NCBI GenBank assembly: GCA_002813895.1
Contig: CP024912.1
Coordinates: 620,001 to 684,000 of the forward strand
Length of the DNA stretch: 64,000 bases
DNA from: Cyanobacterium sp. HL-69
GTDB taxonomy: Bacteria; Cyanobacteriota; Cyanobacteriia; Cyanobacteriales; Cyanobacteriaceae
Direction of reading: 5' to 3'
Positions 21,640-32,277 of the stretch are shown here, one piece after another. The notes under the pieces are model-generated. The model saw nothing but the letters and a program-made list of their open reading frames with translations, was not told where the DNA came from and made no database searches. The translations under genes and the position numbers were made by a program. The stretch's first letter is position 1. Every line of letters begins with the position of its first letter.

Positions 21640-22828
21640 AATATTAAGTGCGGAAGGTTGGCTTAATTATCTATCTTAAAATGTCGTTCGGTCTGGAATT
21701 TTGCACTGAGGGAGAGGATGGATTGGTCAAATTCCAGAAAATCAAGGATAAACGCCTGTTCAATTCAACAGGAGTATATTATATCTGCGGATGCTCCCTA
21801 CCCCAATTACCATGTTCAAGCGAAGGCACTAACTAAAGCTAGAAAGGAAAACCCCAGACTAGCTTCTGTAAATGCACAAGTACAGCAACAAGTCTTAAGG
21901 ACTCTGGAGAGAGCTTTTTTAGACCGTGAACGTAAAGGATTAGGGTATCCTCGTTTCAAAAAACATAGTCGGATGCGGTCATTCGTTTTTCCTCAAATGC
22001 TTAAAAATTGCATTAAAGGTAATCGAATCAAATTACCGCAATTAGGTTGGGTTAAATTTAGACAATCTCGTCCACTTCCCGATGGTTTCTTGGTAAAACA
22101 AGCTCGGATAGTGAGAAAAGCTACAGGATATTTTGTCATATTGTCCTTGCACTCAGATGTGGATATTCCCCAACCAATCCCTCATGGTCATCCTAAAGGT
22201 TTGGACATCGGCTTTATCTCAGCTGTGGTAACATCCGATAATGAACCCATCCCTAGACCTAGGTTCTTAAATAAGTATTCACGGGAGTTGAAAAGACTAC
22301 AACGAATGCTGAAAAAGAAACAGAAAGGGTCTTGTGGATGGAAAAAGTTACAAAAGCGTATCGCTCGTTTACATTTTAAGACTACTCTCCCATCGTAAAG
22401 ATTACCATTTCAAACTTTCCCATCATTTAGTGAAGGATGCAGGGATGATATTTGTCGAGGATATAAATTTCCGAATGTGGCAACGGTCATTCTTGTCAAA
22501 ATCTAGTGCCGATTTTGGTTTTGGACAGTTCATTGATATTTTGGAATGGGTGTCTTTCCGAACAGATACTTACTTCTCCAAAGTAGATCACCGTTACACA
22601 AGTCAGGAGTGTCCTGAATGTGGGGCTAGAACAGGGAAGAAGGACTTAAAGGAACGAGTACACGAATGTCCAGAGTGTGCTTACACCACTGGGCGAGATC
22701 ATGCTTCTGCTTTAGTAATCAGGAATCGTGGTTTAGATTTAGTGGCGGTCGGGCAGCCCGTCCAAGAAAAAGCGAGTGGAGATGGTCGCAGCGGGGGCGA
22801 GTTTACTCGTCTAGCCACGAATCTGTGA
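21640..22828 (+). pseudogene. tnpB: RNA-guided nuclease TnpB, frameshifted
   Basis: The protein can be followed across three frames: GWLNYLS (about 21650), then KCRSVWNFALRERMDW to ARLHFK (about 21666-22375), then HRKDYHFKLSHHL to the stop (about 22390-22828). At least two frameshifts separate them, near 21665 and 22380. The RuvC-like residues remain: Asp in KGLDIGF, Glu in IFVEDIN and Asp in GRDHASA. The zinc-ribbon Cys pairs (CPECG and CPEC) also remain. The gene is therefore only lightly decayed. In intact relatives the 3' end and right end specify the guide RNA. Confidence 0.85.
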
Positions 22829-27338: not shown

Positions 27339-28790
27339 ATGGGCAAAATAATTAATGGTAGATATGAAATAGTAGATAACCTTGCCAAAGGAGACATAAG
27401 GGAAACATTTCTCGCCAAAGATACTCAAATGCCCTCCGAAAAATTGGTGGTTATCAAAACACTAAAACCCCTTGATAGTCAAAACAATAACCTCGAATTA
27501 GTCCAAAATTTATTTGCTAAACAAGCTCAAATATTAGAACAAATAGGGCAAAACTCTACTCAAATCCCTACCCTTTACGACTATTTTACAGAAGATGAGC
27601 AGTTTTATCTCATTCAAGAATATATCGAAGGAAAAACCCTTGCAGACATAGGTATTATCAATTTTGCACGGTGTGAAGTCATCCTCTCATCCCTCCTCAA
27701 TACCCTCAAATATATCCATAGTCAAAATATTATTCACCGTGACATTAAGCCAGAAAATATAATTATTCGTCAAAAGGATGGTTTACCCGTATTAACCGAC
27801 TTTGGGGCAATCAAAGAAACCATGGGGGCGGTTGATAATCTTTCCGCAGAAAGCCCTAAAATAAATGCTACCACAGGTTTTATCGCTCCAGGGCAAAGCG
27901 CAGGAAGAATTATATTTAGTAGTGATTTATATGCCCTTGGGTTAACCATGATTTATGCCCTCACAGGGAAATATCCCCTCGAATTTGCCAATAATCCCCT
28001 CACGGGAGAATTAGATTGGGATAACTCATTGCCCAATATTCCAGCGCCCCTTAAAACCACCTTACAAAAAGCCATCAAAATAGAAGCGGGGCAAAGATAC
28101 CATACAGCCCAAGAGATGTATTTAGCCCTCCATCAAAGTCAACCCCAAACCATCACCCAAGATACCGTGTTAGTCGCCCCCAATAATCCAAGGGAAATGA
28201 ATACTTCTAGTTATAATCCCACCGTGGTAGTATCCCCTTCAGGACAAAAATTTACCCAAGGAAATTATCCCCATCCTGTCACTGGTGTCAATTATAGCTA
28301 AGGTTATTATCAACCGTCCAATCAAGGTAATAACAATAATAACATTATCATAATTTTGTTAACGGCTATCCTTGTCGCCATAGGGGTTTATGGGGGCTTT
28401 TTTATTGCCCAAACCATGAGAAATTCTCAAGGTGAATTTACCGCTACCCAAGGAGAAAGGGAAGAAGAAATTTTGCAGGAATTCATAGAAGAAACGGAAA
28501 CCCCAGTGGAGGTTAACGAGGTGCAAACTCCTGCACCAAATCCTCCTGTAAACAACTCCCCTCCCCCTTCCGTAAATGTTCCTACAAATGCCCGTATTGG
28601 AGGCTCTATGGGAGTTAAAAATATTCGTTCGGGACCGGGTACGGCTTATGGAGTGGTGGGTAGTGGAGTGACAGGAGAGGGCATCGATATTTTAGATAGT
28701 GGTTATGATTCGGGAGGTTATTTGTGGTATCGGGTATATCATCCTGCTTCGGGGGTGACGGGATGGATGGCGGCACAGTTGGTTAATTAA
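27339..28790 (+). pseudogene. Ser/Thr protein kinase 1 (SH3b-type C-terminus), with in-frame TAA
   Basis: ATG 27339 follows GGGGAAAA; an upstream GTG at 27324 is possible. The frame stops at TAA 28299-28301 but continues unbroken to 28790. Aligned with the kinase at 29886, the stop replaces a CAA Gln codon. The kinase domain also looks degenerate: the glycine loop reads LAKGDIRETF instead of LGKGGFGETF, and APE reads APG. The VVIK lysine, HRDIKPEN and DFG are kept. Past the stop are a membrane segment (about 28341-28400) and a bacterial SH3 domain (about 28590-28785, GVKNIRSGPGTAYGVVG). The upstream product would be an unanchored, probably inactive kinase. Confidence 0.82.
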
Positions 28791-28805
28791 TTTGGGGTTG
28801 ATTTT

Positions 28806-29666
28806 ATGATGAAATTTTTTCGCTCTTTATTTTCTAATGTTCAATTTATTAATTTTTTCATCGCTTCTTTGGTAGTAGTGTTACTTTTTGGCTGGATTCA
28901 TTTATCTAGTGATTCGGTAGATGATGGAGTGGTGAGAAATAATTCGGAGATTGTTATGGAAGAAATACCCACGGATGAAACTCAACCTATGGAAAATATC
29001 ATTTCTCCCCCTTCTTCTGATGATGGGGATAATTCGCCCGAGTCTGAGTCGCAGGAGTTTAGTATTACTCCTGATTTACCGCCCCCTCTACCATCCTCAA
29101 CTTCTCAACTACCCTCTGAAAATATGACTAATTCTTTGTTATCGGTGGCAAGTTTTGGGCATTTTCCCTATGCAGAAACTCCCCCAGAGCGATTGGTAAA
29201 TATGGGTAAATACTATCACCGTACAGAATATTTGGACCAAGAAGAGGCGATCGCATTTAATGCTATGAAGGAGGGGGCTAAGGTTGAGGGGGTAGATTTA
29301 GTATTGATTTCAGGCTTTCGCTCAGTGCCTTCTCAAACGACTCTTTTTAATAATCAGGTGAGTAAAAGAGGTTCAGCGGAAGCAGCGGCAAGACTGAGCG
29401 CGCCCCCTGGTTATAGTGAACATAACACAGGATATGCGGTGGACATTGGGGATGGTAAATAACCAAATTTTGATTTTAAACCAGGGTTTGAATCTAGCAA
29501 CGCTGGAAGGTGGCTTTTGATGAATGCTTCTCGCTATGGTTTTGAGTTGTCCTTTCCTCGTAATAATCGTCAGGGGGTTACTTATGAGCCATGGCACTGG
29601 CGTTTTGTGGGTTCACCCCGTGCTAATGAAATTTTTAATGTGGCTCGTCAATTTGCCCAAAATTAG
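28806..29666 (+). pseudogene. VanY-type D,D-carboxypeptidase with in-frame TAA
   Basis: A membrane-anchored peptidoglycan peptidase: N-terminal transmembrane segment (residues 15-32), a Ser/Pro/Glu-rich linker, then a VanY (peptidase M15B) domain. The Zn-ligand motif SEHNTGYAVDIGDG is encoded before a TAA at 29460-29462. The frame then continues without interruption for 68 codons, including the second motif EPWHWRF, and ends at TAG 29664. With the stop read through it would be 286 residues and complete. With the stop obeyed the catalytic Glu and third Zn ligand are lost. A CAA-to-TAA change is the simplest explanation. It starts 15 nt after kinase 1. Confidence 0.83.
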
Positions 29667-29885: not shown

Positions 29886-31532
29886 ATGGCAGAAATAATT
29901 AACGGTCGCTACGAGATAATAGACACCCTTGGCAAAGGAGGCTTTGGAGAAACATTCATCGCCAAAGATACCCAGATGCCCTCAGCCAAATTAGTAGTTA
30001 TCAAAAAACTAAAACCCCTCGATAGTCAAAATACCAACCTCGAATTGGTTCAAAACCTATTCGCCAAAGAGGCCCAAGTATTAGAACAACTAGGGCAAAA
30101 TTGTACCCAAATCCCCACCCTTTACGCCTACCTCATCGAAGATGGGGAATTTTACCTCATCCAAGAACATATCGAAGGAGAAAGCCTTGCAGATATAGGT
30201 ATCATTAACTTTGCTCGGTGTGAAGCCATTCTCTCATCCCTGCTCAATACCCTCAAATATATCCATAGTCAGAATATTATCCACCGTGACATTAAACCCG
30301 AAAATATCATCATCCGCAAAAGCGACGGTTTACCAGTATTAATAGACTTTGGTGCAGTAAAAGAAACCATGGGCGCCATGACAAGGAGTAATAGCTCAAC
30401 GGTAAGCTCTGTAGTGGTGGGTACAAGGGGCTTTATGGCACCCGAACAAAGTGCAGGAAGAACCCTATTTAGTAGTGATTTGTATGCCCTAGGGTTAACT
30501 ATGATTTATGGACTCACAGGCAAATATCCCATCGAATTTGCTAATAACCCCCTCACAGGAGAACTAGATTGGGATAGCTCATTACCCAATATTCCAGCAC
30601 CCCTTAAAACCACCTTACAAAAAGCCATCAAAATGGAAGTAGGGCAAAGATACAGCACCGCCCAAGATATGTATTTAGCCCTCCATCAAAGCCAAACCCA
30701 AAGTACAACCCAAGATACTGTTTTAGTTGCCCCTGCCAATAATACAGGGGGAATGAATTCTTCTAGTTATAATCCCACCGTGGTGGCATCTCCTTCAGGA
30801 CAAAATTTTAGTCAAGGCAGTGCGCCCCATCCCGTCAGTGGTGCCAATTATAGTCAAGGTTATTATCAACCCCCCAATCAAGGAAACAATAACAATATTA
30901 TCGTAATTTTGTTAACCGCTATTCTTGTCGCAATTGGTGTTTCTGGGGGCTTTTTTGCCATGGAACAAATGAGAGCCAATCAAGCCGAGTTAGAGCGTAT
31001 TGAGCAAGAAAAGGCGGAAGCAGAACAAAAACTAATTGAGGAACAAAAAAGAAGAGAAGAAGAGGAGGCAAAACGATTGGATTCGGAAAGATTGGCCTCA
31101 GAAGCTAACGACGCTAGGCTGAGGGCAGAAGAGGATAAGAGAAGGGCTGAACAAGAAGCCAGAAACAGAGTTATCCCAGTAAATAATCAACCTACCTCAA
31201 TAAATAATCCTGATGTCAACACTGTAGATATTTCCGACGCTACTGTTTATATTCATTATCAGTCAAACGAATCAGGCGCTCGTTCTTTACAAGATCATTT
31301 GTTTTCGAGGGGAGTAAACATTGCGGATGAGATAGATCAAATAAATGGTATAAGAAAAAATGACATACGTTATTCAAATTCTTCAGCTCTACCTTTAGCA
31401 AGGGCAGTAAAAAATGAAATAGAATCATTTTATAGAAGTAGAGGTATTAATAAAAATCTCGAAATGATTGATTTATCAGCAAGAGGTTTTCAAACTCCTA
31501 CGAATCAAATGGAAATATGGATTAATGAGTAG
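29886..31532 (+). CDS. Ser/Thr protein kinase 2, membrane-anchored (intact copy)
   Basis: Start is placed at ATG 29886 (MAEIINGRYEIIDTLGKGGFGE), where the paralogues align; an ATG at 29817 would add 23 unlikely residues. The 548-residue protein has a complete Hanks-type kinase domain (about 8-275): glycine loop G16-K-G-G-F-G21, Lys40, HRDIKPEN near 132, DFG and APEQ. A Ser/Thr-rich linker and a membrane segment (about 335-358) follow, then a charged coiled coil (about 360-425, repeats of EEQKRREEEEAKR) and a C-terminal domain of about 100 residues that I do not recognise. The C-terminal part is presumably extracytoplasmic and sensory. It is the only one of three tandem copies that looks functional. 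Confidence 0.88.
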   Translation: MAEIINGRYEIIDTLGKGGFGETFIAKDTQMPSAKLVVIKKLKPLDSQNTNLELVQNLFAKEAQVLEQLGQNCTQIPTLYAYLIEDGEFYLIQEHIEGESLADIGIINFARCEAILSSLLNTLKYIHSQNIIHRDIKPENIIIRKSDGLPVLIDFGAVKETMGAMTRSNSSTVSSVVVGTRGFMAPEQSAGRTLFSSDLYALGLTMIYGLTGKYPIEFANNPLTGELDWDSSLPNIPAPLKTTLQKAIKMEVGQRYSTAQDMYLALHQSQTQSTTQDTVLVAPANNTGGMNSSSYNPTVVASPSGQNFSQGSAPHPVSGANYSQGYYQPPNQGNNNNIIVILLTAILVAIGVSGGFFAMEQMRANQAELERIEQEKAEAEQKLIEEQKRREEEEAKRLDSERLASEANDARLRAEEDKRRAEQEARNRVIPVNNQPTSINNPDVNTVDISDATVYIHYQSNESGARSLQDHLFSRGVNIADEIDQINGIRKNDIRYSNSSALPLARAVKNEIESFYRSRGINKNLEMIDLSARGFQTPTNQMEIWINE

Positions 31533-31571: not shown

Positions 31572-32277
31572 ATGAATAGTCTTTTAATTAACCGTTATGA
31601 AGTAATTGACACCCTCGGCAAAGGAGGATTTGGAGAAACATTTCTCGCCAAAGATACCCAGATGCCCTCGAAGAAATTTGTTGTTATCAAAAAATTGAAA
31701 CCGCTACATGATCAAACTGATAACCTCGATTTTTTACAAAAATTATTTCAAAAAGAAGCCCAAGTATTAGAACAGTTAGGGCAAAATTGCACCCAAATCC
31801 CCACCCTCTACGCCTCTTTTACAGAAGATGGTCAGTTTTACCTAATTCAAGAACATATCGAAGGAGAAAGCCTTGCAGATATAGGCATCATTAATTTTGC
31901 TCGGTGTGAAGCCATTCTCTCATCCCTGCTCAATACCCTCAAATATATCCATAGTCAAAATATTATCCACCGTGACATTAAACCCGAAAATATCATCATC
32001 CGTAAAAGCGACGGTTTACCAGTATTAATCGACTTTGGTGCAGTAAAAGAAACCATGGGTGCCATGACAAGAAGTAATGGCTCAACGGTAAGCTCTATGG
32101 TTATTGGTACGAGAGGCTTTATGGCACCCGAACAAAGTGCAGGAAGAAGCCTATTTAGTAGTGATTTGTATGCCCTAGGGTTAACTAGGAGTATTTCGTA
32201 TTCGTCAGAATGCAATACAAGCAGAACAAACTTTGATTAATGTTGGTTTTAATCCAATTCTGATACCTCAAAATTAA
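31572..32277 (+). pseudogene. Ser/Thr protein kinase 3, truncated by internal deletion
   Basis: Start ATG 31572 has AAAGG just upstream. The kinase domain is nearly identical in DNA to kinase 2 from about 31855 to 32187, then stops abruptly after SSDLYALGLT. The open frame runs on to 32240 with unrelated residues. A shifted frame instead reads GVFRIRQNAIQAEQTLINVG, then FNPILIPQN and a stop at 32277, which resembles the end of a SPOR-like domain. The simplest reading is a deletion that removed the C-lobe, membrane segment and most of the C-terminal domain. The C-lobe helices are absent, so activity is unlikely. Confidence 0.78.

Follow-up and report, generated by a model that had tools for sequence, protein, structure and literature searches.

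We analyzed a 64,000-nucleotide stretch of the genome of Cyanobacterium sp. HL-69 (contig CP024912.1, positions 620,001 to 684,000; hereafter the window). Unless otherwise indicated, the positions given below are those of the window. The HL-69 genome comprises a chromosome of 3,155,247 bases and two plasmids (86,432 and 55,266), for a total of 3,296,945 (PMC5805888). It was assembled from PacBio RS II reads, with correction by metagenome assemblies that had been made from Illumina data on the enrichment culture, and the closest named sister of HL-69 is IPPAS B-1200, with 95.8% ANI (PMC5805888). The locus examined here contains tandem copies of a Ser/Thr kinase gene and a gene for a VanY-family carboxypeptidase, with the following features.

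27339..28790, + strand: kinase 1, an SpkD-type Ser/Thr kinase followed by a transmembrane (TM) helix and an SH3b domain, read here as a very probable nonsense pseudogene.
27384..27401, + strand: degenerate Gly-rich loop of kinase 1 (G16A, G19D, F20I and G21R compared with the close set of kinases).
27825..27893, + strand: activation loop and APE motif of kinase 1, both degenerate (G177A, E185G and others).
28299..28301, + strand: in-frame TAA in kinase 1 (codon 321), CAA in kinase 2 and in the kinase 2 orthologue of the congener G003.
28356..28790, + strand: open frame of kinase 1 after the stop, with a TTG start, 144 aa, containing the TM helix and SH3b.
28620..28784, + strand: SH3_3 domain (Pfam) of kinase 1, conserved past the stop.
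28806..29666, + strand: VanY-family carboxypeptidase, nonsense-interrupted, neighbour of the SpkD-type kinases.
29460..29462, + strand: in-frame TAA in VanY (codon 219); CAA in four, CAG in one and AGG in two of seven close relatives.
29886..31532, + strand: kinase 2, a tandem paralogue that is intact but differs in its periplasmic C-terminus; its orthologue in G003 is also intact.
31572..32240, + strand: kinase 3, the last of the three tandem copies, cut off within its kinase domain.

The frame of kinase 1 starts at ATG 27339, runs for 320 codons to the TAA at 28299-28301 and is then open until TAA 28788-28790. The frame of VanY starts at ATG 28806, runs for 218 codons to the TAA at 29460-29462 and is then open until TAG 29664-29666. 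When the two translations were searched against Pfam with X in place of each stop, kinase 1 matched Pkinase at 15-229 and SH3_3 at 428-482, and VanY matched a single VanY domain at 141-269 that spans the stop at 219. The coordinates, the open frames and the Pfam matches agree with the original prediction that each of the two genes carries an in-frame TAA with a recognisable domain beyond it. Further, the DNA of VanY encodes both SxHxxGxxxD and EPWHW, which we take to be the motifs of the zinc site. The TAA sits between these motifs, and they are consequently not joined in one translated chain as they are in an M15 carboxypeptidase. Literature searches on HL-69, spkD/sll0776, sll0777, UAA-Gln read-through, and premature stops and pseudogenes showed no mention of these two stops among the entries listed.

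To identify the ancestral codon at each stop, we compared the aligned positions in paralogues and relatives. At the position of the kinase 1 stop, CAA was present not only in the paralogue kinase 2, as had been pointed out, but also in the G003 orthologue; the kinase rows of SpkD pairs showed a gap at this linker codon. At the position of the VanY stop, the codon was CAA in L010-L013, CAG in L014 and AGG in L015-L016, and therefore encoded Gln in five of the seven close relatives. All 29 aligned relatives had a sense codon there, in an alignment for which open frames were chosen. In an independent VanY search, no internal stop was present among the matches listed, except in the HL-69 VanY. Among the matches listed in the kinase search, the only internal stop besides that of kinase 1 was a TAG in one distant kinase of G034. 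Thus, in both genes the stop occupies a position at which intact relatives have a sense codon, and the Gln codons in five of seven VanY relatives, in kinase 2 and in G003 indicate that the proposal of a Gln ancestor was right. With transitions given double weight, the share of CAA-to-TAA among all one-step routes to a nonsense codon was 25% for kinase 1 and 13% for VanY. That both mutations were CAA-to-TAA is a mild coincidence, which we counted against simple decay.

Kinase 1 carries heavy damage in its catalytic motifs, which the original prediction did not mention. Of 56 positions that are otherwise invariant across the family, it was changed at 6 (G19D, F20I, E62Q, I153T, G177A and E185G), compared with 0-3 for each of 30 other kinases; this comparison leaves out the truncated kinase 3. 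Within a close set of eight kinases, kinase 1 differed at 15 of 131 sites. L043 (G021), a more distant member of this set, differed at 22 of 138 sites, none of which was in the catalytic motifs. The Gly-rich loop, the alpha-C Glu and the APE Glu have functional roles in kinases. All three are damaged in kinase 1, which accordingly does not have the features of an active SpkD-type enzyme.

We polarised the substitutions in kinases 1 and 2 with the G003 orthologue and compared the counts using the Fisher test. The ratio of non-synonymous to synonymous substitutions in the kinase domain was 43:19 for kinase 1 and 10:45 for kinase 2 (p 3e-8), and the difference persisted when the damaged motifs were removed (23:13 versus 9:37, p 8e-5). 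There was no excess in the linker of kinase 1 (3:5 versus 4:5 in kinase 2, p 1.0), and the difference after the stop was not significant (29:6 versus 8:5, p 0.14). The comparison was also not significant when kinase 3 served as the third sequence instead of G003 (36:42 versus 9:19, p 0.27). The branches leading to kinase 1, kinase 2 and the truncated kinase 3 had lengths of 0.21, 0.038 and 0.26, respectively, in a tree that did not resolve their order. Between kinases 1 and 2, pairwise dN/dS amounted to 0.12 for codons 1-205 and to 0.46 past the stop. In kinase 1 the SH3b part was well kept, with 4 of 42 clade-invariant sites changed (0-4 in other rows) and a pairwise dN/dS of 0.14-0.20. Judged from the invariant sites lost and from the G003-polarised ratio in its kinase domain, kinase 1 is under relaxed selection and appears to evolve almost neutrally. 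The well-kept SH3b part, the linker, the contrasts that were not significant and the pairwise dN/dS of 0.12 count against decay. Because this near-neutral ratio is accompanied by damage to the Gly-rich loop, the alpha-C Glu and the APE Glu, the view that kinase 1 has been decaying for long is well supported by the comparisons. In addition, dS between kinase 1 (27339-28238) and kinase 2 (29886-30800) was uneven, at 0.95 in codons 1-205 and 0.41 in codons 206-300, which suggests gene conversion.

As predicted, VanY showed little damage other than its stop. Ahead of the stop, H207N was the single change among 18 family-invariant sites, and beyond it all 16 such sites were retained. VanY was, narrowly, the most changed row of the close clade, with changes at 6 of 75 clade-invariant sites (4 of 46 before the stop and 2 of 29 after it) compared with 0-4 in the other rows, and its branch in the tree was long (0.54). 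Twelve comparisons of substitution ratios with intact relatives, in which synonymous sites were near saturation, all gave Fisher p > 0.2. The small amount of extra damage suggests that the stop in VanY is probably recent, although read-through would leave the same pattern. The proposed recent paired decay was therefore supported in part: the genes do appear to decay and the VanY stop seems recent, but kinase 1 has probably long been decaying, and the pair does not appear to have been hit in one recent event.

We constructed a VanY tree from both HL-69 copies and 14 of the 29 aligned loci, the other 15 being left out of the grouping. The sequences formed two groups with support of 100/100 each; seven relatives grouped with the broken VanY and seven with an intact HL-69 paralogue. 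HL-69 therefore keeps an intact VanY of the second group, and it has 17 further Pkinase matches over the cut-off beyond this cluster. In the near-complete congeners G002, G003 and G004, the search yielded a single VanY match per genome, in each case from the second group. Since these three genomes show only the other VanY group, the pair appears to be dispensable in the genus. G003 has one intact kinase of this cluster, with the same right-hand neighbours as in HL-69. In the kinase 3 region (31572-32274), a different frame is open past the break, over 32188-32274, and possibly represents a C-terminal piece; it had one weak match elsewhere (L107, E 0.25). A distant plasmid search yielded just short matches, in four records.

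The order kinase, TM helix (judged by eye) and SH3b, with VanY downstream, is the SpkD-type architecture. An intact kinase-SH3b gene lies directly upstream of VanY in four of the seven close relatives (G007, G010, G014 and G021). The VanY of G001 is on a 6.7 kb contig without a kinase, and no kinase or SH3b match adjoins VanY in G006 or G009 (G006 was also checked via L072). Further, L020 (G017) has a kinase near VanY, without an SH3b match. Among the 80 named loci listed, which were retained from a larger number, 11 have a kinase and SH3b before VanY and 4 have SH3b without a kinase. In three of these four, at L074:4973-5656, L086:4435-5592 and L087:3526-5586, an SpkD-like SH3b precedes VanY on different N-terminal parts without a kinase. 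This arrangement suggests a conserved SH3b-VanY cell-wall module whose partners may be exchangeable.

The same arrangement, in which a kinase-TM-SH3b gene is directly followed by a VanY gene, is that of SpkD (Sll0776) and Sll0777 of Synechocystis. SpkD of Synechocystis PCC 6803 (Sll0776) is listed with SH3b (PMC2176072), Sll0777 is listed as a putative carboxypeptidase beside spkD, and both Sll0776 and Sll0777 are raised in a lexA mutant (PMC4759255). It has further been reported that spkD of Synechocystis PCC 6803 shares no operon with its neighbours (PMC7860145) and that SpkD, once reported as possibly essential in Synechocystis, was later deleted (PMC11863333). Our comparison with Synechocystis SpkD was made through L071 of Synechocystis salina, which stands in for Sll0776 and whose arrangement matches that of kinase 1 and VanY in HL-69. 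In contrast to Synechocystis SpkD, kinase 1 has a damaged Gly-rich loop, alpha-C Glu and APE Glu as well as the stop, and it does not have the long periplasmic coiled stretch (by eye). In the tree, the kinase 1 domain fell together with its two HL-69 paralogues, kinases 2 and 3, and with the kinase of G003, and not directly with the Synechocystis copy.

In some genetic codes, such as those of ciliates, UAA encodes Gln, and the presence of TAA in HL-69 at positions where relatives have CAA resembles such codes. A general reading of UAA as Gln, with a UAA-reading tRNA and frequent UAA inside genes, was accordingly considered. ARAGORN typing assigned a stop-reading anticodon, including TTA, to none of the 44 tRNA matches of HL-69, and one tRNA-Gln (TTG) was present among them. 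Scoring in this search covered 150 of the 236 first-look candidates, and one of the 44 was typed only within the window. The number 44 is that given in the HL-69 genome paper (PMC5805888). Stop usage was determined in a sample of 864 kb consisting of the window and 40 stretches of the HL-69 genome, in which the 328 ORFs of at least 300 codons ended in TAA (231), TAG (67) or TGA (30). Thus, unlike in codes with UAA as Gln, TAA is the main terminator in HL-69 and all 44 tRNAs are ordinary.

We surveyed the same sample for further in-frame stops, as had been proposed. Among 436 same-frame ORF pairs, 32 had coding-potential scores printed as at least 0.04 both before and after the stop, and 8 of these 32 lacked any start within 15 codons. 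In three of the eight pairs, namely the two reported TAA and one TGA, the entire segment behind the stop scored 0.22; in the other five it scored 0.05 or less. The open frames behind the two reported stops thus exceed what chance would give. Pfam searches covered 27 of the 32 rows plus two lower-scoring rows; the rows without Pfam were window 34298, window 28788, L204:3479 and two more copies of the L206 repeat. Five rows were read as interrupted genes, comprising the two reported TAA and three TGA. In the 13 other TAA rows tested, no Pfam family extended across the stop, except for one weak AhpC-TSA_2 match in L205, which we rejected as spurious-looking because strong separate families lie on each side. 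The remaining rows were mostly two ordinary adjacent genes or had no Pfam family. The coding-like score is not complete, as the no-start filter missed one TGA transposase and scored the other low, and the survey misses frameshift-broken genes, short tails and families absent from Pfam. Within this scope, Pfam recognised no further interrupting ochre in the 864 kb. We therefore rejected a reassigned code on the basis of the tRNA set, the stop usage and the sample survey.

One of the TGA-interrupted genes encodes a Cache-HAMP sensor (L232:18546-20000; chromosome about 1,843,500-1,845,000). Its TGA at L232:19341 (chromosome about 1,844,341) falls between the Cache and HAMP domains, and the gene, which also has at least one frame change, is a multi-lesion pseudogene. 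The other two encode DDE_3 transposases with TGA inside the domain (L232:11750-12832, TGA 11944, minus strand; L234:6520-7137, TGA 6784). Three TGA-interrupted frames in the sample indicate that broken genes are normal in the HL-69 genome. Separately, a short ORF pair around a TGA was found with equal scores and lengths in three stretches (L206:622, L222:8597 and L240:16263) and is probably a repeated element; the L206 copy contained no Pfam family. In the window, an IS605-type OrfB (TnpB-like) transposase extends over two overlapping frames at 21718-22828. The match to the OrfB_IS605 profile is interrupted between positions 83 and 86, its second part is weak, and the split looks like a frameshift.

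We consider it very probable that the two interrupted genes are nonsense pseudogenes of the ordinary kind, within an SpkD-VanY cluster that is decaying. They resemble other bacterial nonsense pseudogenes in having a single in-frame stop, a recognisable frame and relatives with a sense codon. Kinase 1 is further similar in its relaxed selection, and no VanY orthologous to the broken copy was found in the near-complete congeners. In contrast to typical old pseudogenes, VanY shows few visible lesions apart from its stop. Because both stops lie in one decaying cluster that contains a third broken copy, they do not count as independent draws, and their spacing of 1.2 kb therefore needs no special mechanism.

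A different explanation, to which we give very little credence, is that TAA is read through via a near-cognate tRNA-Gln(UUG), yielding some full-length protein of at least VanY. Such read-through would agree with the VanY frame beyond the stop, which is about as conserved as that before it (none of 16 family-invariant sites lost and no ratio excess), and with Gln at the stop position in five of the seven close relatives. The bases following the stops also fit it, TAAG and TAAC being the two least frequent TAA contexts (16 and 27 of 164 in the first sample). However, kinase 1 evolves almost neutrally, the 44 tRNAs include no suppressor, and the conserved tail of VanY would be explained equally well by a recent mutation. 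We found no positive sign of programmed read-through: the RNA over the 120 bases that follow each stop was not unusually structured (z -1.09 and +0.98), and the aligned relatives have sense codons. Neither a stop conserved together with its extension nor a stimulatory element was found. It is likewise most improbable that the single tRNA-Gln (UUG) decodes the UAA of VanY sufficiently to supply some periplasmic carboxypeptidase and that the frame thereby stays under selection. If true, read-through of VanY would be an unusual case of cellular ochre read-through in a cyanobacterium.

We regard it as similarly improbable that the T in the two codons arose as an error of assembly or consensus, or as a mixed-culture variant introduced by metagenome correction. 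Raw PacBio errors are mainly indels, and both events here are clean base substitutions. Further, the cluster decays regardless of the two bases, given that kinase 1 is degenerate at many other sites and that kinase 3 is broken. These observations outweigh the little other damage in VanY and the use of enrichment-culture metagenome data to resolve gaps and errors (PMC5805888), both of which might be expected of such errors. Finally, it is extremely improbable that kinase 1 is a functional split system of a soluble pseudokinase and a separately started TM-SH3b protein (TTG 28356): the SH3b domain is conserved, the TTG-started open frame covers the TM helix and SH3b, and L074, L086 and L087 carry this SH3b next to VanY on kinase-less proteins, but the kinase domain is near-neutral even beyond its motifs (23:13), no Shine-Dalgarno-like run was seen by eye ahead of the TTG, and the stop in VanY would be left without explanation.

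Under ordinary decay by nonsense mutation, the ancestral unit would have consisted of an SpkD-type membrane Ser/Thr kinase, with a cytoplasmic kinase domain, one TM helix and a periplasmic SH3b domain, followed by a VanY-family periplasmic zinc D-Ala-D-Ala carboxypeptidase. The kinase would have been duplicated in the HL-69 lineage to give kinases 1-3. Kinase 1 would then have lost purifying selection and several catalytic motifs, and kinase 1 and VanY would each have acquired one Gln-to-ochre mutation. The stop in kinase 1 would produce a soluble protein without a membrane anchor or SH3b, in which the kinase motifs were already gone, and the stop in VanY would remove the EPWHW part of the zinc site and leave no active enzyme. 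The loss of protein function, this order of events and the recent origin of the VanY stop are inferred from sequence comparison.

The SpkD-VanY pair would thus be naturally knocked out in HL-69, a free-living cyanobacterium, which is a finding of modest importance. The decay of kinase 1 and VanY, together with the missing orthologous VanY in three congeners, supports the dispensability of this pair outside the laboratory.
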